Below, piece after piece: positions 15,322-39,378 of a DNA stretch of 64,000 bases. The notes below the pieces were generated by a model, which was not told where the DNA came from, searched no databases, and saw only the letters and a program-made list of their open reading frames with translations. Origin of the DNA: Phycisphaerales bacterium. Its GTDB lineage: Bacteria > Planctomycetota > Phycisphaerae > Phycisphaerales > UBA1924. Both the position numbers and the translations under genes were made by a program. The first letter of the stretch is position 1, and every line of letters starts with the position of its first letter. The stretch is taken from positions 1-64,000 of the forward strand of contig JANQQR010000008.1 of the NCBI GenBank assembly GCA_028289195.1. The letters are read 5' to 3'.

Positions 15322-16179
15322 ATGCCGCCCCGACAAGCCGATAGGGTGTGGAATCAGACGAGCAGCGCGATCATGTCCAGCCCTTCAACAAAGCCCGAGC
15401 CAACGCCGCAATCCGGTTCCGATGCTTCAAACCCGAAGCAGTGGGGCAAGCGGGCGTCGGCCAGCGAGGACATCCGGTTCCTCCAGGGCCCCGGAGGACG
15501 AGGATCCGAACTGGCCCGCGCCTTCCGAATCGCCGGCGAGTGCATCAAGGGATTCAGAGCCTTCCACTTCCTCGGACCCTGCGTGACGGTGTTCGGTTCG
15601 GCCCGATTCGACGAGGGCCACAAGTACTACGACCTGGCCCGGCAGACCGGCTCGGAGTTGGCCCGCGCGGGCTTCACCGTGATGACCGGAGGCGGCCCGG
15701 GGGTCATGGAGGCAGCCAATCGCGGAGCCCGGGAAGCGGGGGGCAAGAGTGTCGGCTGCAATATCGAGCTCCCGTTCGAGCAACAGCCGAACGACTACCT
15801 CGATCGGTGGGTGGATTTCAGGTACTTCTTTGTCCGCAAGGTCATGCTGGTGAAGTACTCGTATGCCTTCGTTGCCCTTCCAGGCGGCTTCGGCACCCTT
15901 GATGAGGTCTTCGAGACCGCGACGCTGATCCAGACCGGCAAGATCCAGGACTTCCCTCTCGTGCTCATGGGAAGGGACTATTGGGAGCCGATGCTCATGT
16001 TCATCAGGGCCACCCTCGTCGCTGGTGGCACGATCGATCCGGAAGACGCCGACCGTCTGATCATCACCGACGACCCGGAGCGAGCAACGGAAGTCGTCCG
16101 TGAGGCCGCGCTCCACCGCTTCGGGCTGACGTACGCCAAGCCCCGGCGCCGCTTGTGGTTCCTGGGAGAACGCGCTTGA
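15322..16179 (+). CDS. LOG-family protein (nucleotide 5'-monophosphate phosphoribohydrolase)
   Basis: LOG-family enzymes remove the base from nucleoside 5'-monophosphates; in plants and some bacteria this releases cytokinins, and related proteins act on purine nucleotides. The protein is 285 aa. Both family signatures are present: GGGPGVMEAANRGA and PGGFGTLDEVFE, with a Rossmann-type VTVFGSARF near the start of the domain. The first 50 residues are Ser/Pro-rich and variable. ATG 15322 has GGAG at 6-nt spacing; ATG 15373 is an alternative. It is divergent from pyrB, and its stop overlaps the next gene. Substrate is not predictable; lysine decarboxylase, an old name for the family, is unlikely. 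Confidence 0.85.
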   Translation: MPPRQADRVWNQTSSAIMSSPSTKPEPTPQSGSDASNPKQWGKRASASEDIRFLQGPGGRGSELARAFRIAGECIKGFRAFHFLGPCVTVFGSARFDEGHKYYDLARQTGSELARAGFTVMTGGGPGVMEAANRGAREAGGKSVGCNIELPFEQQPNDYLDRWVDFRYFFVRKVMLVKYSYAFVALPGGFGTLDEVFETATLIQTGKIQDFPLVLMGRDYWEPMLMFIRATLVAGGTIDPEDADRLIITDDPERATEVVREAALHRFGLTYAKPRRRLWFLGERA

Positions 16180-18014
16180 ACCACGGGCCGCAGCATGCAG
16201 GCGTGCCGTCGACGATGCTCACCAGCATCGGTGCGCTTCTCGAGGAGGGCGCGCCCGCCGAGCAGTTCCTCGATCGGCTGCTGGCGCTCCAGGCCGACGC
16301 CACACGCGCACGCGCGGGGCTGCTCCTCCGCGCCGACCCCGCGCGTCCAAGCGATGTGGACGTCCTGGCCTCTCGAGGGGGCGAGCTCGAAGGCGAGCAG
16401 GCCGAATCCTGGCGCCAGACCGCGGCCTCGCTCGCGGCGGGCGCCGACGCGTCGGGCGCTGTCGCCTCCCGCCCCTGTGCCGGGGGAACCGCTGTGGCCG
16501 GCTCCATCTCGGCGTCGGCCGGTGCCCGGCTCGTTGTCGTGCTCCTGCTGGACTCCGGTGCTGACCTCGAGCAGTGCGCCGCAATCATCGCGCTCAGCGG
16601 GCCGCTCACCTCCCTGCACGATCAGCGGCAAAGCGGCGATCCGACAACCGCCCCCGCGCGGGTCGCCATCGACGTCGCGGGCGCCTCGAACGAGGAGCAC
16701 TCGTTCCGCGGCGCGGCGATCGCCGCTGTGAACGCGTTCGAATCCAGGCTCGGGTGCGAGCGAGTCGCGCTCGGGTTGTTCCACGGATCGCGCATGCGCC
16801 TCGAAGCCGTCAGCCAGACCGAGAAGGTCATCCGGACAACCGATTCGACTCGGAGATTCGAGCGGGCCATGGAGGAGTGCGCCGCGCAAGACTCCGTCAT
16901 CACCGCAGACTCAAAGGGGGCGCCACCGGGCTCATCTGCGATCGCTCGGGATGCCGCAGAACTCGCAGACCATTCCGGGGCCGGCTGGGTGTGCATGGTC
17001 CCCATCCGGGCGGGAGCGCGCGTGTGCGGGGCCATCGCGCTGGAGAGACGGGCCGCCGAACCGTTCGGACGCTCGGAGATCGCGGCGGCCGAACTCGCCT
17101 CTGAACTCGTTGGTCCGCGCTTGCTGGAACTCAAACAGCGCGATGCGTGGTTCGGTCATCGCTGGGCCCAGAGCACGCGACGAGCTGCCGCGATTCTCGT
17201 CGGGCCGACACACACCTGGGCGAAACTCGTAGCCATATTTCTTCTAGCGTTTGTGGTCGCATCGCTGGTCATTCAAGGTCCGCTCCGGGTCACGGCCGAC
17301 TGCACGGTGACGGCGAAAGGCGTCCGTGTCATCGCAGCGCCCTTCGCCGGAGTCGTCGAGGAGGTCCTGGCACGCCCGGGCGACGAGGTGATCGAGGGAC
17401 AGACGGTCCTTGCTCGCCTTGGGACCAGCGAACTGGAACTCGAACTCGTCGAGGCCACTTCCAGACGCAGCGAAGCTGAGCGCCGGCAGTCGATTGCCCG
17501 TGCCGCCAACGAGGCCGCGAATGTCCGAATCGCCGAAGCCGAAGCCGCCGAGGCCCAAGCCCGGATAGATCTCCTCGAATCCAGGATCGCTTCCGCGAGC
17601 CTTCTCGCGCCGCTGAGCGGTGTGGTCCTGCGCGGGGATCTCTCGAGTGCCGTCGGCGCGAGCGTCGAGCGGGGGCAGGCGTTGTTCGAACTCGCGCCGG
17701 CCGGAGCACTCGAAGCGGAGTTGCGGGTCCCTTCTTCGTCCGTCGCTGAGGTGGGCGTATCAAGCGTTGGTTCGTTCGCTTCAGTGACGTTCCCCGGTCG
17801 GCGGATCGCACTGAAGATCGAGCGCCTGGATCCAATCGCCACGGAGATCGACGGCCGGAGCGTCTTCATCGCACGTGCGGAGTTCACGGAGGATGCCGAC
17901 TGGCTCCGTCCGGGCCTTGTCGGCGTCGCAAGGATCGATGCCGGAACCGGCTCCTACGCTTGGCTCTGGACCAGGAGGCTCACGCGGTGGATGCGACTCA
18001 AGCTGTGGCTCTGA
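16176..18014 (+). CDS. GAF-domain / transmembrane / HlyD-type adaptor fusion protein
   Basis: A 612-aa protein joining a cytoplasmic sensor-like half to a periplasmic adaptor. Residues about 170-325 look like a GAF domain (HSFRGAAIAAVNAFESRLGC, WVCMVPIRAGARVCGAIALE). A single membrane helix lies at about 349-369 (LVAIFLLAFVVASLVIQ). The remainder is a barrel-sandwich hybrid and coiled coil as in HlyD/RND membrane-fusion proteins (VIAAPFAGVVEEVLARPGDEV, SLLAPLSGVVLRG). The TTG at 16176 overlaps the LOG stop as TTGA and has GGGAG upstream; ATG 16215 is an alternative. It probably works in envelope transport with the membrane protein that follows. No transporter ATPase is adjacent. Confidence 0.75.
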   Translation: MNHGPQHAGVPSTMLTSIGALLEEGAPAEQFLDRLLALQADATRARAGLLLRADPARPSDVDVLASRGGELEGEQAESWRQTAASLAAGADASGAVASRPCAGGTAVAGSISASAGARLVVVLLLDSGADLEQCAAIIALSGPLTSLHDQRQSGDPTTAPARVAIDVAGASNEEHSFRGAAIAAVNAFESRLGCERVALGLFHGSRMRLEAVSQTEKVIRTTDSTRRFERAMEECAAQDSVITADSKGAPPGSSAIARDAAELADHSGAGWVCMVPIRAGARVCGAIALERRAAEPFGRSEIAAAELASELVGPRLLELKQRDAWFGHRWAQSTRRAAAILVGPTHTWAKLVAIFLLAFVVASLVIQGPLRVTADCTVTAKGVRVIAAPFAGVVEEVLARPGDEVIEGQTVLARLGTSELELELVEATSRRSEAERRQSIARAANEAANVRIAEAEAAEAQARIDLLESRIASASLLAPLSGVVLRGDLSSAVGASVERGQALFELAPAGALEAELRVPSSSVAEVGVSSVGSFASVTFPGRRIALKIERLDPIATEIDGRSVFIARAEFTEDADWLRPGLVGVARIDAGTGSYAWLWTRRLTRWMRLKLWL

Positions 18015-24362: not shown

Positions 24363-24399
24363 AATCCGGTGGGGCGCCTCGAGCGTCGCACCGGATTTT
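24363..24399 (+). terminator. Terminator-like hairpin between pstS and pstC
   Basis: AATCCGGTG (24363-24371) pairs perfectly with CACCGGATT (24389-24397). An inner stem GGCGC/GCGTC with one G-U pair extends it across a single mismatch, and the loop is CTCGA. The run TTTT (24396-24399) closes it. This is the form of a Rho-independent terminator or partial attenuator that would let PstS outnumber the permease. A GTG start at 24369 would be inside the stem, which argues for the later pstC start. Confidence 0.6.
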
Positions 24400-24434
24400 C
24401 ATCGAGTCAGAACGCGACAGGGGACGACCCGCAG

Positions 24435-26030
24435 ATGCAGAACGATCCCAGCACCGCGACTCTCGACCTTCCCGGCAAGGCCCGCTCTCGCGGGATCCAG
24501 CGCCTGAGGGAAGGCCTGATCGTCGGCTCCCTCGTCGGGTGCGCGCTGTTCTCCGTTTTCATCACGTTCTCGATCGTCATCGTGCTGTTCACCGAGACCC
24601 TCGGATTCTTCGGCGTGCACGGCGACGACTCCCCCGGCCGGGCCAACGTCGTCCTCCAGAGCGCCGAATCCGGGCAGACCGAGGACCCCGCGCCCCCGGG
24701 CAACGTGGTCATCAGCGAGATCCGGGTGCACCTTCCCGGCGACACAGAGGTGCAGTTCTTCGAACTCGCCGGGCCGCCCGGTGCTTCGCTCGACGGGATG
24801 CACTACGTCATCCTCGGCAGCCCCGACTCCGCGGGGGATCAGGGGATCATCGAAGCGGCGATCGATCTCGGTGGCCAGTCGCTCGACGCCCAGGGATACT
24901 TCCTGGCGGGCAACCGGCCGAAGACCCTCGGGAACCGGGCCGCGCTCGTCTTCGACGACGGGATCTTCCGTGACGATCACACGACGACGCACGCGCTTGT
25001 ACAGGGATTCACCGGAGCGGTGGGCGATGTGATCGACCCGGATTCGGACGGCGGGCTCGATTCACACCCGTGGCTCCGGCTTGTCGATGCGATCGCGCTG
25101 CTTGCGGAAGACGGCGCCGATTCCTCGCCTATCTACGCCACGGTGTCCCTCGGTCCCGGGGGCGAGGGTTTAACCCCCTCGTACGTCTACCGGAACTCCC
25201 TCGACACCAACGCTCCCTGGAGCTGGCGCATCGGCGCGTCAGAGACCGTTGAGGTCAGGATCACCGAGTTCCTATTCGGCCTCGAATGGAACCCGCTCCT
25301 GGGCGCCGACAAGAACTTCGGGATGTGGCCGCTGGTCTCGGGCACGCTGCTGGTCGCCGTGCTCTCAGCCGGGATTTCCATCCCCCTGGGTCTGATCACC
25401 GCGATCTACCTGAGCGAATACGCGCCGCGGAGACTGCGAGCGTTCCTGAAGCCTGTGCTCGAGGTGCTCGCGGGCATCCCGACCGTCGTGTACGGGTTCT
25501 TTGCCCTGACCGTCATCACCCCGACCCTCCGCGGAGTGGCGGAGTTCCTCACCGGCGAACCGATCTTCGAGGCATACAACGCGATGAGCGCGGGCATCGC
25601 GGTCGGCATCATGTGCCTGCCGATCGTGACATCCCTGAGCGAGGACGCCCTGCAGGCCGTGCCCCGCAGCCTCCGGGAGGGCGCCTACGCCTGCGGCGGA
25701 ACGAAGTTCGATGTGTCGGTCAAGGTGGTCGTTCCCGCGGCCCTCTCGGGTGTGATCGCTGCGTTCCTCCTGGCGATCGCCCGTGCTGTCGGCGAGACCA
25801 TGGCGGTCTCGCTCGCCGCCGGAGGCTTGGCCAATCTCACCGCGAACCCCGCCGAGTCGATCCAGACCATGACCGCCTGGATGGTCCAGATATTCCTCGG
25901 CGACGCGAGCAACTTCGGCCCCGAGTACCGCTCGGCGTACGCCATCGCATCAGTGCTGTTCGTGATGACCCTCGGCCTGACGATCATCGGCGGGCGGGTG
26001 CTCGCCAAGTTCCGGGAGGAGTACGAATGA
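24435..26030 (+). CDS. pstC: Phosphate ABC transporter permease PstC with periplasmic domain insert
   Basis: Inner-membrane permease subunit. From ATG 24435 (GGGGA about 10 nt upstream) it is 531 aa, some 200 longer than E. coli PstC. Membrane helix 1 is at about 26-54. Residues about 91-267 form an extra periplasmic domain opening VVISEIRVHLPGDTEVQFFE and containing FELAGPPGASLDG and DSDGGLDSHPWLRLVDAIAL. It resembles the lamin-tail-like domains of secreted planctomycete proteins. The permease core then follows (ITEFLFGLEWNPLLG, the family start), with the EAA-like loop EDALQAVPRSLREGAYACGG. The stop overlaps pstA as ATGA. Subunit identity is firm; the insert's role is unknown. Confidence 0.92.
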   Translation: MQNDPSTATLDLPGKARSRGIQRLREGLIVGSLVGCALFSVFITFSIVIVLFTETLGFFGVHGDDSPGRANVVLQSAESGQTEDPAPPGNVVISEIRVHLPGDTEVQFFELAGPPGASLDGMHYVILGSPDSAGDQGIIEAAIDLGGQSLDAQGYFLAGNRPKTLGNRAALVFDDGIFRDDHTTTHALVQGFTGAVGDVIDPDSDGGLDSHPWLRLVDAIALLAEDGADSSPIYATVSLGPGGEGLTPSYVYRNSLDTNAPWSWRIGASETVEVRITEFLFGLEWNPLLGADKNFGMWPLVSGTLLVAVLSAGISIPLGLITAIYLSEYAPRRLRAFLKPVLEVLAGIPTVVYGFFALTVITPTLRGVAEFLTGEPIFEAYNAMSAGIAVGIMCLPIVTSLSEDALQAVPRSLREGAYACGGTKFDVSVKVVVPAALSGVIAAFLLAIARAVGETMAVSLAAGGLANLTANPAESIQTMTAWMVQIFLGDASNFGPEYRSAYAIASVLFVMTLGLTIIGGRVLAKFREEYE

Positions 26031-27226
26031 GCGTCGTCGAGCAGTCGATCACGAGCCGGATGCGCAGGCGGAAGCTCATCAACAGCGCGTTCGTCGCGCT
26101 CTGCGTCGCCACAGCCTCCGTTTCGGTGCTGATCCTGATCGTGCTCCTCACGTCGATCGTCACGACGGGGCTCAAGCACCTGGATCTCGCGTTTCTCACC
26201 TCGTTCCCCTCCAGGAACCCCGAGGAGGCGGGCCTGAAAGCCGCGATCTGGGGATCGATCGGGATCTGCGCCGTGTGCGCTGTCGTGTCGCTCCCCCTCG
26301 GGGTCGGCACCGCGGTGTTCCTCGAGGAGTTCAAGCCCAAGTCGCGATGGGAGCGCGCGATCCACCGTTTCGTGGACCTCAACATCCGCAACCTCGCGGG
26401 CGTCCCCTCCATCGTCTACGGCATCATCGCCCTGACGGCTTTCGTCCAGATGTTCGGCGTGTTCGGCAACCTCAACGAGCCGGCCTGGACCTTCGGCGCG
26501 ACGTACTACGACGAGTACAGCCTCTCCGATGGCGAGGTCGGATACCTGCGAGCGGACTCCAGAGATGCGCCCGCGGCAGAGCTCGCAGCCGGATCCGTCG
26601 TCGAGATGCTTACCTACGAAGGGGCGTCGATCGAGGTCGGCGTCGTCGGTGACTTCGACGCGTTCTTCGACGCGGAGGAAGCAGGCACCGTGCCTCCCGT
26701 CGTCGTGGCCGGCGAGGACTCGTACCGAGGCGAGCGCCGGGCCTGGTACTACCTCCAGCTCCCGTTCGGCCGTGGTGTGCTCGCGGGCGGGCTCACGCTG
26801 ATGCTCGTCATCCTGCCTGTGGTCATCATCTCGGCCAGCGAAGCCCTGCGAGCGGTGCCCAACTCCTTGCGAGAGGGCGCGCTGGCAGCGGGGGCCACAC
26901 GATGGCAGATGGTCTGGAAGATGACGCTCCCGTGCGCCGTCCCGGGCATCATGACCGGCTCGATCCTCGCGATGAGCCGCGCCATCGGCGAGGCGGCGCC
27001 CATCCTCGTGATCGCCGGCGGCCTCGTGTTCGTGGCGTTCACGCCCGGGCATCTCATGGACGAGTTCACCGCCATGCCGCTGCAGATCTACAACTGGGCC
27101 TCGCGGCCCCAGGAAGAATTCCACAACGTTGCCGCGTCGGGCATCATCGTTCTCCTGGCGGTGCTGTTCGTGTTCAACGCCGTCGCAGTTATCATCCGTC
27201 AGTTGTTCCAGAAGCCACTGCAATGA
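26027..27226 (+). CDS. pstA: Phosphate ABC transporter permease PstA with periplasmic insert
   Basis: Second permease subunit, 399 aa (E. coli 296). Core features are present: N-terminal helix ([19 protein letters not shown]), [35 protein letters not shown] and the cytoplasmic loop [18 protein letters not shown] that couples to PstB. Between helices, residues about 150-240 are an extra acidic segment ([33 protein letters not shown]) not found in the E. coli protein and predicted to lie outside the membrane. ATG 26027 overlaps the pstC stop, and the stop overlaps pstB, both as ATGA. Confidence 0.93.
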
Positions 27227-28128
27227 TCCACCATCACTCGACCGACGAGGCCGTCGCGATGCAAGACGTTCCGGAGACATCGCAACCCGATCCCGGATCC
27301 GGAGGCGGCTCGAACCCGCTCTCGCAGGTCGTCCAGCGCGCCATGGCCGATCGAGGCGGGGAACACGGCCCAGCCGACACCGCGCTGGTCGTGCGCGATC
27401 TGTCGTGCTGGTACAGCGCCTTCAAGGCGCTGCACTCGATCAACATGGATATACCCGACAACCGGGTGACCGCGCTCATCGGGCCCAGCGGCTGCGGCAA
27501 GAGCACCTTCCTCCGCTGGATCAACCGGATGAACGATCTCATCCCGGGAGCCCGGGTCGAGGGCAAACTGGAACTGCACGGCCTCGACCTTCTGTCTCGA
27601 GAACTCGACGTCGTCGATCTTCGGCGCCGGGTCGGCATGGTGTTCCAGAAGCCGAACCCGTTCCCCAAGTCGATCTACGACAACGTCGCGTTCGGGCCGC
27701 GCCTGCATCGGAAGATGCGCAAGAGCGAGACCGATGATCTTGTCGAGCGCAGCCTCCGGAAAGGAGCGCTCTGGGACGAGGTAAAAGACCGCCTGAACCA
27801 ATCGGCGCTCGGTCTCTCAGGCGGGCAGCAGCAGCGCCTCTGCATCGCTCGCGCGATCGCCGTGAGCCCGGAGGTTCTCCTGATGGACGAGCCATGCTCG
27901 GCCCTCGACCCGCAGGCCACCCTCCGCATCGAAGAGCTGATCCGCGACCTCCGCGAGCAGTACACGATCGTGATCGTGACGCACAACATGCAGCAGGCGG
28001 CGCGGGTCTCCGACCAGACCGCGTTCTTCTACGAGGGCAAGCTGATCGAAGCCGGCAAGACCCTCGATATCTTTACGAACCCGCAGAACAAGCAGACGGA
28101 AGAGTACGTCACCGGCCGATTCGGCTAG
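27223..28128 (+). CDS. pstB: Phosphate ABC transporter ATPase
   Basis: ATP-hydrolysing subunit on the cytoplasmic face of PstCA. The protein is 301 aa with Walker [11 protein letters not shown]-loop [14 protein letters not shown], signature [14 protein letters not shown], Walker [13 protein letters not shown] and switch His in [15 protein letters not shown], all intact and PstB-specific. The first 45 residues are a Gly/Ser/Pro-rich extension absent from most PstB. ATG 27223 overlaps pstA as ATGA; ATG 27259 is an in-frame alternative. Confidence 0.96.
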
Positions 28129-28878: not shown

Positions 28879-29706
28879 TCAGTCGAGGATCCGGACGCTC
28901 GCCTCCGAACCGACCACGATCGCCCCGTCCGGGTTGGCGACCTCGATGCGCACCATTCGGGTGCCGGATGCGGCGTCGCCGAGCGACGAAACGAATGACA
29001 CAACGCCCGCCCGCTGCGGCGACTCGATACCCGGGATGAGGACCTCGGCGTCGTCGCCTGTGCGGACGCCGGCCGTCGCGCTGATGGGCAGAGCCGCCTC
29101 GACGACGACGGGATCGACGGCGACGATCCTCACGATCGGGCGCGCCGATTCTGCGAACTCACCGGGATCGATCTCGATCGCCTCGACGATCCCGGAGCCC
29201 GGCGCGCGGAGGGTCATCCGTTCATGGGCCGCGAGCGCCTGGGCCCGTTCGAGTTCCGCCTCGCGACGGGCCTGTTGCGCCAGCCGGAGACGCACGTCGG
29301 CGCGAACCGTCTGGAGAGAGGCGCGTTCGACCTCGAAGATGCTCGCCGCGTCCTGCTCATAGGCTTCGCGCACGCGGGCCTCTTCGTTCCGGGCCAGATC
29401 CAGCTCGGCCTCCGCCGCGGCGACGGCGAGGTCGCTCTCCGCTCGCACGGTCAGTAGCTCGATCCGGGCGAGAGAGACCGACCCGTCGAGTGAGGCGAGC
29501 ACCTGCCCGGCCTCGACTGTGTCGCCCGCTTCAACGTTTACACCCTCGACGACGCCGGTCACGGTGAACCCGAGCATGAGGTCCGTGCTCGGGCGAACGA
29601 TCCCCTCGAACGACGCGGCCCGGCCCTCCGCCTGCCCAAGCGAGGACGGCGAGAGGGCTGCCACGGCGAGGCCGAGGGCGAAGACGACGGTCTGGCGTCT
29701 GGTCAT
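28879..29706 (-). CDS. HlyD/RND-type periplasmic adaptor protein
   Basis: A 275-aa membrane-fusion-type protein, shorter than most. Signal peptide at residues 1-24 (VVFALGLAVAALSPSSLGQ), a barrel-sandwich half-motif (VEAGDTVEAGQVLASLDG), a long coiled coil (about 75-155, rich in Ala, Glu and Arg), the second half-motif (LRAPGSGIVEAIEIDPGEF) and a beta-barrel. ATG 29706 has AGGAG upstream. It is divergent, 113 nt start to start, from the M50-HlyD gene and has no RND or ABC pump on its strand, so it probably works with that neighbour rather than with a classical efflux pump. Confidence 0.82.
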   Translation of the reverse strand: MTRRQTVVFALGLAVAALSPSSLGQAEGRAASFEGIVRPSTDLMLGFTVTGVVEGVNVEAGDTVEAGQVLASLDGSVSLARIELLTVRAESDLAVAAAEAELDLARNEEARVREAYEQDAASIFEVERASLQTVRADVRLRLAQQARREAELERAQALAAHERMTLRAPGSGIVEAIEIDPGEFAESARPIVRIVAVDPVVVEAALPISATAGVRTGDDAEVLIPGIESPQRAGVVSFVSSLGDAASGTRMVRIEVANPDGAIVVGSEASVRILD

Positions 29707-29819
29707 GACGAAACGCTCCTGAGAAGCCGATATCGTTCCTCAGGCTACCTTCGAACGAGCCGACGCGGAGATCCACCATCGCAGAAGATCGGCACACGCT
29801 GCACGACTCGTGGTACCGC

Positions 29820-31895
29820 GTGAGCGGGATGCGCCCGCGCCTGCGCGCAGGGGTCGAGATCCGCCCCCAACGCCATCACGGCCAGGAGTGGCGGGTCGCC
29901 CACGACCCGGCGTCCGGACACCAGTTCCGGATGAACGACTCTGCCTACCAGTTCATCGCCCGGCTCGACGGGCGCCGGACGGTCGATGACGCTTGGGTGC
30001 AGGCCAGCGAGGCGATCGGCGATGACGCCCCGACGCAGGGCGAGTCGATCCGCTTGCTGGGCCAGCTGTGGAGCTCGGGTCTGCTGAGCTCTGATGTCCC
30101 GGCCGACGTCGCGCCGCTGCTGCAGCGGATGCGCCGCAAGTCGACGCGCCGTGTCCAGATGAGCCCGGCGTCGCTGCTGGCGCTGCGGATCCCGCTCTTC
30201 GATCCCGACCGGCTGCTGAACGGGATGGCCCTGGCGCTGGGCTGGGTCGTCTCGCCGATCGGGGCAGCGATGTGGATCGTGCTCGTCGGACTCGGGCTAT
30301 CGCAGCTCGCGGGGAGGGGCGACGAGCTCGGCGCATCAGCGAGCGATGCCCTCGCTCCCGCGGGCCTCCCGTGGCTCTATCTCGTCGTGGTGCTCATCAA
30401 GCTCGCCCACGAGCTGGCCCACGGCCTGACGTGCAAGGTGTTCGCGCGGCGGGAGGGCAATCCGGGCGAGGTACACACGCTCGGCATCATGTTCCTCGTG
30501 CTCCTGCCGGTCCCGTATATCGACGCGTCGAGTGCCTGGAACATTCGGAGCAAGTGGCGCCGCGCGATCGTTGGCGCCGCCGGCATGATCGCCGAACTTG
30601 CGATCGCCGGGATCGCCGCGATCGTCTGGGTGCGGACAGATCAGGGTGCTTTGGTCCACGGCCTGGCGTTCAACGCGATGCTCGTCGCGGGAGTCTCGAC
30701 GCTTCTGTTCAACGCCAACCCGCTCCTGCGCTACGACGGCTACTACATCCTCTCTGATCTGCTGGAGATCCCCAACCTCCAGCAGCGTGCGCGCGAGTCG
30801 CTGACCACGTTTGTGCGCCGAAACATCTGGCGGGTGCGGAGCAGAAGGGCGATCCCCCGCGTCTGGCAGCGCCCCGCCGAGTCGGTGCTGTTGCCCATCT
30901 TCGGGATAGCCAGCTCCGTCTACCGGGTGTTCATCACCATCGCGATCGCGATGTTCGTGGCTGACCAGCTCTTCTTCGTTGGAGCGATTCTGGCGACCAC
31001 CGCGATTGTCTTCTGGATCATCGTCCCCGTCGCGCGTCTCTTGCACTATCTGGCCACCTCGTCCGAATTGATCGGCACCCGATTGTGGGCCACCGTCTCG
31101 ACCGGGGGAGCGATCGCCGCGGCCCTGATCGCGATCGGCGTCGTCCCTGCGCCGAGCGCGGTGCGTATGGATGGAGTCGTCGAGTCACCGGGCCTCGTCC
31201 GCGTACGCGTCGAGTCTCCTGGTTTCGTGAGAGTGGCCGCCGCCGAGCCCGGTCGGGTGTCGGCCGGCGATGTGCTCCTTCAACTCGAGGATCCGGTCAT
31301 CGCAGGTCAGATCGCGGAGGTCGGAGCCAGGATCGCCCGAGCCAAGGCGCGCCGGAGGGCGCTCCTGGAAGACGAGCCGGCCCGCGCAATGCTGGAGCAG
31401 CAGAGGATCGATGCGCTCTCCACACAGCTCAGCTTCTTGCAGGACCAACAGGACTCGCTGCAGATCACCTCGGCGGTCGACGGCACCTGGAGCCCGGACC
31501 CGGGCGCGATGCGTCTGGGATCGTTCCTGCCGCGCACAGAGGAGATCGGGGTCATCGTCCCCGCTCTCGACATCCGAATCCGCGCGAGCGCAGGCCAGGA
31601 GAGCGCGGGGCGGTTCGCGGGCGCGCCGCCCGCATCGGTCGAGGTCAGGAGCGTCGCGCGAGACCGGTCGACCCAGCAGGGCAGTATTGAGCGTGTCGCT
31701 CGCTCGGATGCCGATCCGCGGGGTGTGCATCGCAGGCCGTTCGACGTGTTTGTCGAGCTGGCCGACAACGGCACGCCGTTCCTTGTCGGGGAGCCGGTTG
31801 TCGTCCGGGTCGCGTTTGCCGCCGAGCCCGTAGGGGCGCAGGTTCGGCGAGCGATCGAGCGTGCCTTCCAGCGCAGATTCGGGGATGCGCCATGA
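29820..31895 (+). CDS. PqqD-like / M50 site-2 protease / HlyD fusion membrane protein
   Basis: A 691-aa fusion. Residues about 20-105 look like a PqqD/RRE-type peptide-binding domain (WRVAHDPASGHQFRMNDSAY, FIARLDGRRTVDDAW). The middle is a membrane zinc protease of the M50 family, with HELAH at 197-201 and the second metal motif in NANPLLRYDGYY near 297. After five or six helices, residues about 440-690 form a HlyD-like adaptor (FVRVAAAEPGRVSAGDVLLQL and a coiled coil). GTG 29820 is the first standard start, but the frame runs on upstream as LHDSWYRV, likely genuine coding. The stop overlaps the SecA-like gene as ATGA. Export with processing is inferred. Confidence 0.82.
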   Translation: MSGMRPRLRAGVEIRPQRHHGQEWRVAHDPASGHQFRMNDSAYQFIARLDGRRTVDDAWVQASEAIGDDAPTQGESIRLLGQLWSSGLLSSDVPADVAPLLQRMRRKSTRRVQMSPASLLALRIPLFDPDRLLNGMALALGWVVSPIGAAMWIVLVGLGLSQLAGRGDELGASASDALAPAGLPWLYLVVVLIKLAHELAHGLTCKVFARREGNPGEVHTLGIMFLVLLPVPYIDASSAWNIRSKWRRAIVGAAGMIAELAIAGIAAIVWVRTDQGALVHGLAFNAMLVAGVSTLLFNANPLLRYDGYYILSDLLEIPNLQQRARESLTTFVRRNIWRVRSRRAIPRVWQRPAESVLLPIFGIASSVYRVFITIAIAMFVADQLFFVGAILATTAIVFWIIVPVARLLHYLATSSELIGTRLWATVSTGGAIAAALIAIGVVPAPSAVRMDGVVESPGLVRVRVESPGFVRVAAAEPGRVSAGDVLLQLEDPVIAGQIAEVGARIARAKARRRALLEDEPARAMLEQQRIDALSTQLSFLQDQQDSLQITSAVDGTWSPDPGAMRLGSFLPRTEEIGVIVPALDIRIRASAGQESAGRFAGAPPASVEVRSVARDRSTQQGSIERVARSDADPRGVHRRPFDVFVELADNGTPFLVGEPVVVRVAFAAEPVGAQVRRAIERAFQRRFGDAP

Positions 31896-33832
31896 CAGCG
31901 TACGCATCCCGTTCTCAGCCGGCATCGATCGCCGGCCTAGCCCGGCCGGCACCCCTTCCGAAGGGGCTTGATGCCGCCTGGGCTGGGGCGGGCCGGGCTC
32001 TGCGCCGCGCGGTCCCCGCCCGCTGGTTGATCGGCAGGGCGGCCGACAGGGTCTCACGGGCATGGAGCCCGCTGCGGGAAGCAACGCCGGCCCAGCTCGC
32101 GGCGGAGATCGAGAGCGCCCGTCGTCGGCTGCGCCTGAGCCCGGCGACCTGCGCGGCCGATGCAACAGAGCTCGCGCTCGTCTGCGAAGCCGCGCGGCGT
32201 TCGATGCGCCTTGAGCCGAACAGGTCGCAGATCCTGAGCCTTCTGGCCGTGCAGCGCGGGTGCCTCGCCGAACTCGCGACCGGCGAGGGCAAGACGCTGG
32301 TGGCCGGGATGGCAGCGGTCGTCGAGGGATGGCGCGGGCGCGGCTGCCACGTGATCACGGCGAACGACTACCTCGCCGGACGCGACGCCTCGTGGATCGC
32401 TCCTCTCTTCGAGCTGTGCGGTGTAGAGGCCGGATCGATCGAGTCTCGTTCCAGCACGGAACAGCGACAACGCGCCTACTTGCGCGACGTCACCTATCTC
32501 ACGGGAAGGGAAGCCGCCAGCGATTTCCTGCGGGATGCACTTGCCCTCGCAGAATCGGGCGTCCATCATCGCGCCGGCGCGATCCTCCAGTTCGGGGGAA
32601 GCGATCACACGCTTCTGCAGAGGGGCCTGGCATCAGCAATCGTTGACGAAGCCGATGCGGTGCTGATCGATGAGGCGGGCACGCCTCTCATCCTGGCCGG
32701 GGGAAACCGAGCGCTCCAGAATGACTCTGAGCTCCAACGCGCCGACGAGCACGCGACGCGACTCGAGCGGGGCAGGCACTACTCGGTCTCCCAGTCCGAC
32801 AGAGCAATCACGTTTACACCCGAGGGCCGTCGGAGCGCATCGGGTCTCGCGGGAGACGCGGGCTCTGCTCGGCGTTCGATCGAACTCGTGCAGTCGGCCA
32901 TCAGGGCCCGCGAATGCTACGAACGAGGCAAGGACTACCTGGTCGACGACGGACGCGTGGTGATCATCGACGAATCGACGGGTCGTCCGATGCCGGATCG
33001 CACATGGCGCGGCGGCCTGCACCAGGCGATCGAGGTGAAGGAGGGCTTGCGCACGTCCACGCCGCCGGAGACGCTGGCGCGGATCAGTTTCCAGCGGTTC
33101 TTCCGGCGCTACGAGCGCCTGGCGGGGATGACCGGCACCGCCCGAGAGGTCGCGGGCGAACTCTGGGCAACGTATGGCTTGCGCGTCGTTCCGGTCCCGA
33201 CGAACAAGCCGATCGTGCGCCGGCAGCGAGCTTGGCGCCGGATCAACTCGCACGACACCCGGCTCGAGGTAATCGCAGACGAGATCAACGCGGCGGTCGA
33301 GCGCGGGCAGCCCGTGCTGGTCGGGACCCGGACCGTCGCGGCGAGCGAGGAACTCTCAGAGATCCTCGTGTCTCGGGGCATAGACCACCAGGTCCTCAAT
33401 GCTTCGCGAGTCGCCGAGGAAGCTCGGATCATCGCAGCAGCGGGGCAGAGCGGGCGGGTGACCGTGGCGACGAACATGGCCGGCCGCGGCACAGACATCG
33501 CGCTCGGAGACGGTGTCGCCGAGAGAGGCGGCCTGCGCGTGGTTCTTACCGAGCCCCACCTCGCCGAACGGCTCGACCGTCAATTGGCCGGGCGCTCCGG
33601 ACGTCAGGGCGACCCGGGCGAAGTGCTGCGATTCGCCACCCCGCAGGATGAGGCGCTCGCACTGGGCGGTTCAGGGCTCATCCCGACCATGGCAGGGCTG
33701 TTCGGCGTCGGAGCCCGGATCGGACAGAGCCAGCGCGCTCTCGAGTCGCGAGCGCGTCAGCGCCGGCGTTCCGTTGCTCGGGAAGACGACTGGCTCGACG
33801 ATGTGCTCGGATTCGCCGGCCGGCAGCCGTAA
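31892..33832 (+). CDS. Shortened SecA-like translocation ATPase
   Basis: A 646-aa SecA-family motor, against about 900 aa for canonical SecA. The DEAD motor is complete: ATGEGKT (Walker A), VITANDYLAGRDA, IVDEADAVLIDEAGTPLI, LAGMTGTAREVAGELWA and the helicase end ATNMAGRGTDIALG to RQLAGRSGRQGDPG. A preprotein cross-linking-like segment follows the DEAD box. After the RQGDPG region only about 70 residues remain, so the helical scaffold/wing domains and the zinc-binding SecB tail are missing. ATG 31892 overlaps the M50-HlyD stop as ATGA. It is probably an accessory SecA for this locus; the housekeeping SecA should be elsewhere. Confidence 0.85.
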   Translation: MTAYASRSQPASIAGLARPAPLPKGLDAAWAGAGRALRRAVPARWLIGRAADRVSRAWSPLREATPAQLAAEIESARRRLRLSPATCAADATELALVCEAARRSMRLEPNRSQILSLLAVQRGCLAELATGEGKTLVAGMAAVVEGWRGRGCHVITANDYLAGRDASWIAPLFELCGVEAGSIESRSSTEQRQRAYLRDVTYLTGREAASDFLRDALALAESGVHHRAGAILQFGGSDHTLLQRGLASAIVDEADAVLIDEAGTPLILAGGNRALQNDSELQRADEHATRLERGRHYSVSQSDRAITFTPEGRRSASGLAGDAGSARRSIELVQSAIRARECYERGKDYLVDDGRVVIIDESTGRPMPDRTWRGGLHQAIEVKEGLRTSTPPETLARISFQRFFRRYERLAGMTGTAREVAGELWATYGLRVVPVPTNKPIVRRQRAWRRINSHDTRLEVIADEINAAVERGQPVLVGTRTVAASEELSEILVSRGIDHQVLNASRVAEEARIIAAAGQSGRVTVATNMAGRGTDIALGDGVAERGGLRVVLTEPHLAERLDRQLAGRSGRQGDPGEVLRFATPQDEALALGGSGLIPTMAGLFGVGARIGQSQRALESRARQRRRSVAREDDWLDDVLGFAGRQP

Positions 33833-33869: not shown

Positions 33870-34679
33870 GTGGAGACGCTCGAACATCTGAGGCTGAAAG
33901 AGATCGGCCTGCGATTCCTCGTTGAGCTCGGCTGCAGCGCTGCGTCGATCGAGGTGCGATGCCCGCGGTCGAGGTTTCGGGCGGACGTCGCGGGGTATCT
34001 CGATTCGCGCCCGGTCGAGCGCTCCGCGCACGCCGAGCGCCGCGAGCTCGTCGGTTCTCTCTGGGGCGCGACGCCCGATGGCCGGCGCAAGCTCCGTCGA
34101 GAGCGTTGCGAACCCCGCACCGTGATCATCGAGTGCAAGGCGGCCCGGAGCGACTTCCTGAAGGACTCCCGGGACGCCGAGCGCCTCCTCGCCCGACGCG
34201 AGGCTCTGGACGATCGCCGGCGCGAGATCGAAAGCGAGATCATCAAGCATCGGGAGCCGCACCTGCGTCAGTCGGGCGAGTTTCTGTTCGAGGATCTGGA
34301 GAGTTGGGACTTCTCGTCGAGCAGCAGCCGCGCATACCGGCGCGTCATGCGCGACCTCCGCCAGATCGACCGCGCGATCCACGGCGAAACGAAGTTCTGG
34401 CTGGCCCGCCAGTACCGCCTCGCGGATCGTCTCTACCTGATGGCGCCCGCGGGGATGATCAAGCCTCGCGAACGTCCGGCCGGGTGGGGGGTGATCGAGT
34501 ACCCCGAAGGGCTGCTGTCGAGGCGCTCGATCGACGAGTCGGAATTCGTCTCGTCGGTGCGGGTTTCGGTGGTGGCGCCCGAGCGCGACTCGGGCGGCGA
34601 TCAGCGTGCGCGGATGCTCAGGAACATCGCCGCCGCCGCGACGCGTGAGAGCACCAAGCGGATGCCCCAGTTCGCCTAG
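33870..34679 (+). CDS. PD-(D/E)XK nuclease-fold protein, MmcB-like
   Basis: A 269-aa soluble protein. RFRADVAGYLDS and VIIECKAARSDFLKD place a conserved Asp and a Glu-x-Lys as in PD-(D/E)XK nucleases, and DRLYLMAPAGMI is the strand that follows in MmcB-type DNA-repair proteins. A charged insert of about 90 residues sits between the core halves. GTG 33870 gives the start; no strong ribosome-binding site is seen. The stop shares a CTAG with the convergent RND gene. Function in DNA repair is inferred from fold similarity only. Confidence 0.6.
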   Translation: METLEHLRLKEIGLRFLVELGCSAASIEVRCPRSRFRADVAGYLDSRPVERSAHAERRELVGSLWGATPDGRRKLRRERCEPRTVIIECKAARSDFLKDSRDAERLLARREALDDRRREIESEIIKHREPHLRQSGEFLFEDLESWDFSSSSSRAYRRVMRDLRQIDRAIHGETKFWLARQYRLADRLYLMAPAGMIKPRERPAGWGVIEYPEGLLSRRSIDESEFVSSVRVSVVAPERDSGGDQRARMLRNIAAAATRESTKRMPQFA

Positions 34680-37600
34680 GCGTCGGCCTTGGCAGCGGGT
34701 GTCGCGGGGGTGCCGTTCGTCTCCGGGTGATAGTGGTGGGCGTGACGCTCCCACGGATCGAGGCCGATGTTCCAGAACTGTCGCACGTAGTGCTTTACGT
34801 CCGCGAACACCAGGATGAGACACGGCAGCGCGATGAGGATCAGGAAGGTCGCCGACATTAGGCCGAAGGTGATCGTGATCGCCATGGGGATCAGGAACCT
34901 CGCCTGGAAGCTCTGCTCCGCCAGCAGGGGGAGCAGGCCGAGAACTGTGGTAACGGTCGTGAGCAGGATCGGCCTGAATCGCTGGCGCCCGGCCTCGAGG
35001 AGCGCGTTGAAGATCGGCACGCCCGCCGCATGCTGCTCGTTGTAGAACTTCATGAACACGATCGAATCGTTCACCACCACACCCGTCAGCGCGATGAACC
35101 CGATCAGCGAGAGGAACGTCAGGTCGAACCCGAGCAGCATGTGCCCGATCACGACTCCGGAGATGGTGAAGGGGACCGCCGTCAGAATTATCAGGGGCTG
35201 CAGGTAGCTGCCGAAGAGCCACGCGAGGATCACGAAGTTCAGCCCGATCGCGGTGATGAGCCCGATCGGGAGCGTGCGGAACGAGTCGGACACGTCCTGC
35301 TGACGCCCGCGTTCGAGGATCGACACGCCGGGTGATGCCAGTTCGAGCGCTTCGAGCTCCGACTTCAATTCGCGCACGATGTCCTCGACACTCGTCCCGG
35401 GGTTGCGGGAGCGGTCGTAGTCGGCGGTGATGGTGACGGCACGCTGGCGGTCCAGGCGCTGCACGGAGGCGTAGCCCCGCCCGTCGGAGATCTTCGCGAC
35501 CTCACCGAGCGGAACGGGCACGCCGTCGGGCGAGAACACGTGGAGCGCCTCGATCGAGGCGAGCGAGCGCCGGGTCTCTGCGGGAAGAGTGACGCGGACG
35601 TCGACGTCCTCCTGATCCCCGGCGAATGTGTGCGATTCGAGCCCGAACACGGCCGCGCGCATCTGGCGTGCGAGCGATTCCGGCGTGAACCCGAGCGGCG
35701 CGGCCGAATCGAGCAACTCGATCCGCAGCTCGCGCTGGCCCTGCTCGGAATCATCCGCGATCTGGATCACGCCGTCGTACTCGGCGAGCAGCGCCCTGAC
35801 TTCGCGGACGACCGGCATAATCTGCGATTCACTATCCGATGCCACGGTCAGCGAGATGGGCGGACCCTCGGGGCCGCCGCCGATCTCTTCGATCCGCAGG
35901 CTCTTGATGCCTGTGATCGAACCCAACTCGGCGTAGATGCTCTGTATGACCTCGCCCGAGGGCTTGTCACGCAGTTCCACCGGCTTGAGCTCGAGGATGA
36001 CCTGGCCGACGTGCGCCTGCTGCGACGACGATTCCCCGTCGAGCGAGCCCGCCGAGCCGATGAGCGCCCAGGCCGCCTGCACCTCTTCCTGGCTCAGCGC
36101 CGCGTCCTCGATCTTGCGGATGACCTCATCGGTCCGCTCGATGGGCGTGCCGGTCGGCATGCGCAGCGACACGCTGACCGTCTCGCTGTCGGCGCTGTCG
36201 ATGAACACGAACGGGACACGCCCGCCCATCACGATCCCGGCGAAAAACGTCGAAACCGCGATCGCGCAGGCGAGCGTGATGTAGCGCTGGTGCATACAGG
36301 CGCGGGCCACCTTCACGTACGCCGGGATCAGCAACTGCTGGAAGAAGCGCTCACGCGCTGCATCGAACCGGAACTCCAGCCTCTGCAGCCAGTTGGCGTG
36401 GCCCGGTTCGTGGCGTTCGTCCAGATCGGCCAGCGAATGGGCCATGTGGTTCGGAAGGATGAACAGCACCTCGAGCAGCGAAACCGTCAGCGCGCACACC
36501 ACGACCGCCGGGAGCACACCGATCAGGTCTCCGATGCGACCCTCGATCAGCGCCAGCGGCATGAAGGCGACGATCGTGGTGAGGATCGTGCCGATCACCG
36601 GCCAGGCGACCTGGCGGCAGCCCTCGACAGCCGCGTCCTTGGGATTCATCCCGGCCTCGTGCTTCGCCGTGATGTTCTCGGCGATCACGATCCCGTCATC
36701 GACGAGGATGCCGATCACGACGATCAAGCCGAACATCGTCAGGAGATTCAGCGTGATGCCCACGAAGTGCATGAACGCCAGTGTGCCCAGCAGGGCGACG
36801 ACAACACCCAGCGACACCCAGAACGCCACCCGCGCATTCAAGAGAATCACGAGCGTGAAGAAGACCAGGATCCCGCCCCAGAACGCGTTGCGGCTCAGCA
36901 GATCGAGGCGGCCCACAATGAACCTCGCCAGGTCGGTTGTGGTCACCAGTTCGCCGGGTGGGGCCGCCGGCTTGGATTGCCCCAGCTCGTAGGCCACGAG
37001 GCGCCGGCTGACCGGCGTCCCGTCGTACCGAGGATCGAACTCTCTGATCGAGCGCGTGATCTTCTCCATGGTCGTGCGCTCGATGGGCTCGCCGCGGCGT
37101 CCCGCGACATAGGCCTTGACCATCTCCGCCATCTCGACGGCGTCGTCCTTGCCGACCTTGTAGACCGTCAGGCTCGCCGCGGGCTTGCCGTTGAGGCGCT
37201 GGAGCAGATCCACGTCCGCGAACGTGTCCCGGATCGTCGCGATGTCGCCGATTTTGAGGACCTGCCCGTTGGGCAACCCCTTGATCACGATGTTCCGGAT
37301 CTCGGCGACCTGCTCTTCCTTGCCGAGCGTGCGCACCGTGATGTTGTTCGTGTTGGAGCGAACGGACCCCGAGGGCAGCTCGACGAGCGCCTGACGCACG
37401 CGCTCGGAGATCGCCGGCAGGCTGAGCCCGTGTTCCAGCAGCGCCGATTCGGGGATCTCGACCCGGATCTCGTCCTTGCGCACGCCTCCGAGCACGACGT
37501 CGCCCATCCCGGGGAGCTTGCGCAGGTCGTCGCGCACCTCCTTGATCGCTTCCTTGAGGATCTCCTCGTCGGCATCCCCGAAAAGCGACACGTTGATCGC

Positions 37601-38005
37601 CGGGATGTTCGGCTCGAACTTGTCGACGACGATCTCGTCGACCTCGGGCGGAAGGTCCTGCAGCGCATCCACCTCGCGCTTCACGTCGGCGAGCGCCTGA
37701 TCAATCGGGAACCCGTCGACGTACTCGATCCTGACGGAGCAGAACCCTTCGCGCACGGATGTCTGGATCTCGTCGATGCCGTCGAGGTCCGCGACCTGGT
37801 CTTCGATCTTGATCGCCAGCGAGCTCTCGACCTCTTCCGGCGACGCCCCGGGATACGGAGCGTTGATCGTGATCTGGTTCGCCCTCACCTCCGGGAAGAA
37901 CTCGCGACGGAGTGTGATCCCGAAGATCAGGCCGGCCCCGATGATGACCCACATCGTCAGATTGGCGACAACGGGGGTGCGGACTCCGAACTCCGCGAGC
38001 TTCAC
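34676..38005 (-). CDS. RND efflux transporter permease (HAE1/AcrB type)
   Basis: Proton-driven inner-membrane pump subunit, 1,109 aa, with the usual two large periplasmic loops after helices 1 and 7. The N-terminal PYPGASPEEVESSLAIKIED, the FGLIVVIGILVDDGIVIAENI helix 4 segment with its proton-relay Asp pair, and ALTGVVVNDSIVFMKF in the second half are typical. About 50 extra residues precede helix 2 (near VAYELGQSKPAAPPG). GTG 38005 overlaps the adaptor's stop as GTGA, so the two are translationally coupled. No TolC-type outer-membrane gene is adjacent. Substrate unknown. Confidence 0.93.
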   Translation of the reverse strand: MKLAEFGVRTPVVANLTMWVIIGAGLIFGITLRREFFPEVRANQITINAPYPGASPEEVESSLAIKIEDQVADLDGIDEIQTSVREGFCSVRIEYVDGFPIDQALADVKREVDALQDLPPEVDEIVVDKFEPNIPAINVSLFGDADEEILKEAIKEVRDDLRKLPGMGDVVLGGVRKDEIRVEIPESALLEHGLSLPAISERVRQALVELPSGSVRSNTNNITVRTLGKEEQVAEIRNIVIKGLPNGQVLKIGDIATIRDTFADVDLLQRLNGKPAASLTVYKVGKDDAVEMAEMVKAYVAGRRGEPIERTTMEKITRSIREFDPRYDGTPVSRRLVAYELGQSKPAAPPGELVTTTDLARFIVGRLDLLSRNAFWGGILVFFTLVILLNARVAFWVSLGVVVALLGTLAFMHFVGITLNLLTMFGLIVVIGILVDDGIVIAENITAKHEAGMNPKDAAVEGCRQVAWPVIGTILTTIVAFMPLALIEGRIGDLIGVLPAVVVCALTVSLLEVLFILPNHMAHSLADLDERHEPGHANWLQRLEFRFDAARERFFQQLLIPAYVKVARACMHQRYITLACAIAVSTFFAGIVMGGRVPFVFIDSADSETVSVSLRMPTGTPIERTDEVIRKIEDAALSQEEVQAAWALIGSAGSLDGESSSQQAHVGQVILELKPVELRDKPSGEVIQSIYAELGSITGIKSLRIEEIGGGPEGPPISLTVASDSESQIMPVVREVRALLAEYDGVIQIADDSEQGQRELRIELLDSAAPLGFTPESLARQMRAAVFGLESHTFAGDQEDVDVRVTLPAETRRSLASIEALHVFSPDGVPVPLGEVAKISDGRGYASVQRLDRQRAVTITADYDRSRNPGTSVEDIVRELKSELEALELASPGVSILERGRQQDVSDSFRTLPIGLITAIGLNFVILAWLFGSYLQPLIILTAVPFTISGVVIGHMLLGFDLTFLSLIGFIALTGVVVNDSIVFMKFYNEQHAAGVPIFNALLEAGRQRFRPILLTTVTTVLGLLPLLAEQSFQARFLIPMAITITFGLMSATFLILIALPCLILVFADVKHYVRQFWNIGLDPWERHAHHYHPETNGTPATPAAKADA

Positions 38006-39378
38006 GGGGATCGCTCCCCGGACCCGCCGATCGGCGAGGCTTCGGCATCGCGTGCCGCGGCTCTCACCGCTCCGGAGCTCGCCTGAGGACGCACCGGAGA
38101 TCCGTGCCGAAGCTCGTCGAGATTCGAGGTGATCACCCGGTCGCCGACTTCCAGACCGGAGTCGATCGCCAGCCACTGTGTCTCATCGGGATCGAGTGTC
38201 TCGAAGCGTCCATCGATCGGAAACGCCACCACGACCGGCCGGGACCACGCGAGATCCCCGTCGCCGACCACCATGACCCGATCATCGATGACCGCCACTC
38301 TCGGCACGATGATCGCCTCGAGCGCTTCGCGTGCCGGGATGCCCGCCATCACGAATCGCCCCGGCTGCAGCAACCCGGCTCGGTCGGGCGAGCCCGGATC
38401 CTGCTCGAGTTCAGCGAACACGGTGACCGTGCGGGATGCCGGGTCTGCCTCGGGTGCAACCCGGGTCACAACCGCGAGCCAGGCACTCGATACGGCCCCC
38501 TCGGATCGGAGCGTCACCTCCGCGCCGATTCCGACCGATCCCGCGGCCGAGACCGGGATCTGCAGCGGGATCTCCATGCGCGACAGATCAGTAACCCGCG
38601 CGATCGGAGAACCCGGAGAGACCCGCTCACCCTCGCGGACGTACACGTCCTGCACCGTGCCGCTGATGGGACTGACGATCGCGGTGCGTTCGACGTCGAT
38701 CTCGGCGAGTTCGAGGTTCGCTTGTTCCACGCCGATCTGGGCGTCAAGGCGGGCCCGGCGGGCGGGGATGAGCCCCAGCGCCTGCTCGAGGTCCTGCTCG
38801 TTCCGCTCCGCGCCGGTGATCTGGCGGCGCAGGCGGTCGATCTCGATGCGCGACGCGCTGCGTGCCCGCTCGGCTTCCTGGAGGAGCTCCAGCTCGTCGT
38901 ACAGCAGGCGGGTGTTCTCTTTCGCGAGTCTCAGATTTTCGGTGAGGGTCCGCTCCTCGACCGACAGCCCCGACCTCTCGGCTTCGAACGCCGCGATCGA
39001 GTCCCGGGCGCGTTGTGCCTGAGCCAGGAACGGCCGGCCGTCGAGCTCCACGAGCACATCGCCGGCCTGCACACTCGCTCCCGCTTCGATCCCGACGGGC
39101 CGGCGGACGACCCGCGCCGCGACCTCCGCCGCGACGTCGGCTTCGTTCAGCGGCCTCGCGGCTCCGAACGCCGACCACGTCCGCGTGACGGCCGCGGGGC
39201 TCACCGTGATGGTGCGGACCGTCTTGGCGAGTTCGAGCTGCTCGACGAGCGGGGGCTTTGGCTTGGTGTTGACCAGGAATTGATACGACCCGATCCCGAA
39301 TCCCAGAATCACGACCCCGACCGAGGCCCGGATGAACAGGTTCAAGCCTCGAGATGTGCCACGCCGCCTCCCGGCCAC
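38002..39378 (-). CDS. RND efflux periplasmic adaptor subunit
   Basis: Membrane-fusion protein for the permease downstream. The protein is 458 aa with an N-terminal membrane anchor (residues about 14-34, FIRASVGVVILGFGIGSYQF), barrel-sandwich halves at VGIEAGASVQAGDVLVELDG and AIVSPISGTVQDVYVREGE, a long coiled coil between them (about 125-235) and a beta-barrel plus membrane-proximal domain. GTG 39378 is preceded by AAGG and AGGA, which decides the start. The tail of about 40 residues is low complexity. Confidence 0.92.
   Translation of the reverse strand: MAGRRRGTSRGLNLFIRASVGVVILGFGIGSYQFLVNTKPKPPLVEQLELAKTVRTITVSPAAVTRTWSAFGAARPLNEADVAAEVAARVVRRPVGIEAGASVQAGDVLVELDGRPFLAQAQRARDSIAAFEAERSGLSVEERTLTENLRLAKENTRLLYDELELLQEAERARSASRIEIDRLRRQITGAERNEQDLEQALGLIPARRARLDAQIGVEQANLELAEIDVERTAIVSPISGTVQDVYVREGERVSPGSPIARVTDLSRMEIPLQIPVSAAGSVGIGAEVTLRSEGAVSSAWLAVVTRVAPEADPASRTVTVFAELEQDPGSPDRAGLLQPGRFVMAGIPAREALEAIIVPRVAVIDDRVMVVGDGDLAWSRPVVVAFPIDGRFETLDPDETQWLAIDSGLEVGDRVITSNLDELRHGSPVRPQASSGAVRAAARDAEASPIGGSGERSP

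Follow-up and report, generated by a model that had tools for sequence, protein, structure and literature searches.

Genes at the locus

The window analysed here is a stretch of 64,000 nucleotides of a Phycisphaerales bacterium genome (assembly GCA_028289195.1, contig JANQQR010000008.1). Three genes are closely arranged in it: a small HlyD adaptor gene (28879-29706, minus strand), a divergent gene for a PqqD/M50/HlyD fusion (29820-31895, plus strand), and a gene for a short SecA-family ATPase (31892-33832, plus strand), whose start lies in the last four bases, ATGA, of the fusion gene. The initial annotation had described these genes and their overlap correctly. However, it missed a fourth component, a GAF-HlyD protein of 619 aa at 16155-18014 on the plus strand (E 4.8e-85, 33% identity), the start of which may be 16215. 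In most relatives this is the gene directly upstream of the M50 fusion, and here it is displaced about 11.8 kb upstream. The initial annotation also stated that no standard ABC or RND pump is present. The only ABC genes near are the phosphate transporter genes upstream (24369-28128), and no exporter ABC was found at the locus. In contrast, an RND pump (ACR_tran, 548.7 bits; 34676-38176, minus strand) and its own overlapping adaptor (38002-39378, minus strand) lie just downstream and convergent with the SecA gene. The statement on RND pumps is wrong, although this pump is not part of the conserved module.

The small adaptor has 275 aa and an N-terminal Sec-type signal peptide, and matches HlyD_D23 (77.4 bits) and TIGR01730 (103.7 bits, cut-off 94.9). 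Because it scores above this RND_mfp cut-off and an RND pump lies 5 kb away, the adaptor could simply belong to that pump, with its position beside the M50/SecA pair arising by chance. However, the pump has its own adaptor gene, and the same kind of small HlyD adjoins the module in about 33 of the Planctomycetota neighbourhoods and about 50 of the 80 wider loci described below. Hence, this possibility appears very unlikely.

The fusion protein comprises a PqqD/RRE-like domain (about residues 1-91), a polytopic M50 site-2 protease with HELAH at 197-201 and NANPLLRYDGYY around 298-309, and an HlyD adaptor domain (about 442-676). Matches to PqqD (21.8 bits, just under the cut-off of 23.4), M50 and HlyD_3 are weak in this protein alone, but 17, 37 and 25 of 47 family members hit these three families at E<=0.001, and PqqD reaches E 3.8e-8 in the best homologue. 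H197, E198, H201 and D306 are invariant in the 47 sequences. An AlphaFold2 model from these 47 sequences has a mean pLDDT of 89.6, and the metalloprotease motif lies in a predicted helix. In this model, residues 4-91 match the RiPP recognition element of a lasso peptide B1 protein solved with its leader (6jx3_B, Z 10.3, rmsd 2.8 over 83 residues), and residues 442-680 match MexA, AcrA, EmrA and MacA adaptors (Z 13 to 16). Thus, the PqqD-like reading of the initial annotation is confirmed as a predicted fold, and the alternative that this domain is not PqqD-like was rejected.

The SecA protein (646 aa) keeps nucleotide-binding domains 1 and 2 and the preprotein cross-linking domain, together with the start of the scaffold helix (SecA_DEAD 262.7, PP_bind 83.7, P-loop 146.8 bits). 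Alignment to solved SecAs stops near residue 602 of T. maritima SecA, and short SecAs of this kind match E. coli SecA only up to about residue 650 of 901. According to the usual domain limits of SecA, the wing domain, two-helix finger and C-terminal zinc tail are therefore missing; the lack of the C-terminal scaffold and zinc tail was initially annotated. Walker A and B and the helicase motifs are conserved in 34 relatives.

Conservation of the module

To examine whether these parts form one system, sixty neighbourhoods from relatives of the window's genome and 80 loci from a scan of about 85,000 species genomes were gene-called and clustered. Of the 80 loci, 67 have a short SecA within 3 kb downstream of the M50 fusion on the same strand, and several of the 13 others stop at a contig end. 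Moreover, 75 of the 80 have the GAF-HlyD directly upstream. Hosts include Planctomycetota, Verrucomicrobiota, Fibrobacterota, Nitrospirota, Thermodesulfobacteriota, Myxococcota and many Pseudomonadota. A chance neighbourhood was rejected on these data. However, an adjacent SecA is not obligatory, since in a SecA-less form (loci L195, L213 and L214, and genomes G480, G481, G484, G522, G542 and G550) GAF-HlyD and M50-HlyD are followed by a HlyD-sized gap and then a LEPR gene (see below) about 1.2 kb downstream of M50.

In a phylogenetic tree, short SecAs form one group (ultrafast bootstrap 95, SH-aLRT 90) apart from canonical SecAs (100/100). One short SecA (L189) was an outlier, probably a miscalled frame, and was dropped from the final tree. 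A canonical SecA is found alongside the short ones, and in the window's genome it lies on contig C8. A broken canonical SecA was rejected, because motifs are conserved and the short SecAs form one group across phyla. It remains possible, but unlikely, that the short SecA is an accessory SecA2-type motor working on the ordinary SecYEG channel, with the M50 and HlyD proteins acting afterwards in processing and in crossing the outer membrane. All motor motifs of SecA are kept, a canonical SecA is present in the same genomes, and SecA2 systems of Gram-positives may serve as precedents. However, all NCBIfam SecA2 models score far below their cut-offs (324-429 bits against 725-1100), the two-helix finger and wing are absent, the candidate cargo leaders lack a signal-peptide core, and no SecY-like gene family recurs among the clustered neighbours, although it was not searched for specifically.

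Other genes accompany the module in part of the loci. A DUF3467 gene (~120 aa product) is present in 20 of 61 neighbourhoods, in L095 (12145-12567), L060 (14764-15156) and about 18 other loci, and at 51521-51790 of contig C19 in the window's genome. It is a frequent companion of the module and of LEPR giants. The fold of this protein is unclear; its model is poor (pLDDT 67) and neither Foldseek nor VIA-align listed SecB, the chaperone to which it was compared. It also occurs in genomes without the module and is not counted as a part. SapC (PF07277) proteins sit in the operon, often between the giant and the exporter genes, in several Pseudomonadota (L162 6998-7744, L208 7215-8048 and others), and tandem HDOD-domain genes lie directly upstream of the module in methylotrophs (L198 6444-8198, L199, L202). 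In addition, another SecA-like protein (about 627 aa, its own clade) was found in a different conserved gene set of at least seven families (L101 8300-10183, L103 9266-11146).

LEPR-XLL proteins as candidate cargo

One neighbouring giant gene matched the NCBIfam domain LEPR-XLL (NF012209), and we therefore tested this family as cargo in several ways. LEPR-XLL matches were found in 32 of 39 module-bearing genomes from outside the window's relatives, mostly outside the Planctomycetota, with open frames up to 15,957 codons. In 294 Planctomycetota genomes, 67 have the M50-HlyD protein and 31 a LEPR-XLL match, and 30 of the 31 are among the 67 (Fisher p=3e-21). In 245 genomes of a proteobacterial order the figures are 57, 30 and 28 (p=1e-18), and within the window's own family p is 1e-5. 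Fisher tests ignore shared ancestry, so these p-values are optimistic, and the agreement of two unrelated lineages is the safer argument. Conversely, more than half of the genomes with the fusion have no LEPR-XLL match over the cut-off (37 of 67 and 29 of 57), suggesting that the fusion may have other cargo or that the 24-residue profile misses divergent leaders.

LEPR genes also often adjoin the module. In the proteobacterial order, where contig labels can be compared exactly, 18 LEPR genes in 17 of 28 genomes lie within 5 kb of the M50 gene, against 0.26 expected by random placement, and 16 of the 18 are on the strand of the M50 gene. In loci L174, L184, L194 and L200, the N-terminus of the giant with the motif lies inside the fetched locus. 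In genome G085, the short SecA sits next to DUF3467 and a giant beginning with LETLEPRVLLT although the M50 gene is elsewhere, and genome G094 has the same gene order. The N-termini are 13 to about 60 residues, mostly basic, followed by LEPRxLLSAD or a close variant, with no Sec-type hydrophobic core. Cargo domains include cadherin, DUF4347 and RTX repeats. In the window no LEPR gene is near the module. However, the same genome encodes one clear member (MRAREKFRRQGISPVFEQLEKRLLLSADAP...) of about 1,010 residues with a cyclophilin-type PPIase domain, on another contig (C24, about 66820-69998; match at 69954-69998, 27.3 bits, cut-off 17).

These data bear on two other readings. The M50 protein may be a regulatory site-2 protease forming an envelope signalling system with the GAF protein, and LEPR genes may lie nearby as its regulon. 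M50 proteases often seem to act in signalling, and a GAF domain is present. However, three HlyD adaptors, TolC genes in several loci and a SecA motor make little sense for signalling, and association with one N-terminal motif fits leader recognition better, so this reading is improbable. Alternatively, the machine may mature and export small RiPP-like or daptide-like peptides. The best NCBIfam match of the fusion is the daptide intramembrane metalloprotease (NF041824; 157.6 bits, below its cut-off of 300), over residues 6-407, that is, the N-terminal domain plus M50 core, and the RRE domain is typical of RiPP systems. However, the window protein also carries a HlyD domain and sits with a SecA instead of a RiPP cluster. 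No recurrent small precursor gene was found among neighbours, DUF3467 being the only small one, and the co-inherited family is the LEPR-XLL proteins. Hence, small peptides are also a very unlikely cargo.

A possible secretion mechanism

The module was described previously. Kamneva, Poudel and Ward (2015, PMC4452313) reported a secondary SecA_DEAD protein with M50/HlyD, HlyD and GAF/HlyD proteins, sometimes with an OEP protein, in overlapping phyla. They proposed that the SecA serves as ATPase and the M50 protein as pore in place of an ABC transporter, and stated that the broader role was completely unknown. No cargo and no leader-binding domain were named, and PqqD, LEPR and giant do not appear in their main text. 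The one other citing paper that we found is about microbial co-occurrence. A Vibrio paper notes a LEPR-XLL/RTX protein of ~8000 aa without naming an exporter, and no export route for the family was found in the literature searched. Hence, the link to LEPR-XLL cargo and the PqqD/RRE domain appear to be new, within the limits of an open-access search. The window differs in that the GAF-HlyD gene is displaced.

Our results support the initial interpretation of the genes as one system for leader recognition, cleavage and ATP-driven transport, although this mechanism is inferred and rests on no experiment. In the model that we favor, with a probability of roughly 0.68, the locus encodes a dedicated machine that works like a type I secretion system, in which the ABC transporter is replaced by a polytopic RRE-M50-HlyD membrane protein plus a stripped-down SecA motor. 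Large exoproteins without a Sec signal would carry an N-terminal, mostly basic leader ending in LEPRxLLSAD, and the PqqD/RRE domain would bind that leader at the cytoplasmic face of the inner membrane. The short SecA would then hydrolyse ATP to feed the chain into a path formed by the M50 protein, alone or with another channel. However, a SecA without the two-helix finger has no demonstrated translocation activity. The M50 active site may trim the leader, but cleavage of the cargo has not been shown. Finally, the three HlyD-type adaptors (M50-HlyD, GAF-HlyD and small HlyD) would bridge the periplasm to a TolC-type outer membrane channel, and the GAF domain would sense a signal and gate the machine. 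TolC-type proteins are encoded at the locus in some relatives, whereas none was identified in the window, the rest of the genome not having been searched.

HlyD adaptors, TolC-type proteins at the loci of some relatives and giant RTX/cadherin candidate cargo without Sec signal are shared with type I secretion systems (HlyB-HlyD-TolC and LapBCE-type exporters of giant adhesins). In our system, however, a SecA-family motor and an M50 membrane protein are present instead of an ABC transporter, and the shared cargo motif is N-terminal. It is somewhat more likely than not that the module is a distinct secretion system with its own signal, which would be the export route for the LEPR-XLL family across several phyla.

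The module was left with an unknown role in 2015, and LEPR-XLL proteins, among the largest proteins in bacteria, had no assigned exporter in the literature searched. Linking the two makes both questions testable in culturable bacteria, and would show that a SecA motor can drive secretion through an HlyD/TolC path without an ABC transporter. Moreover, a short, defined N-terminal signal would also let the cargo be predicted from sequence.
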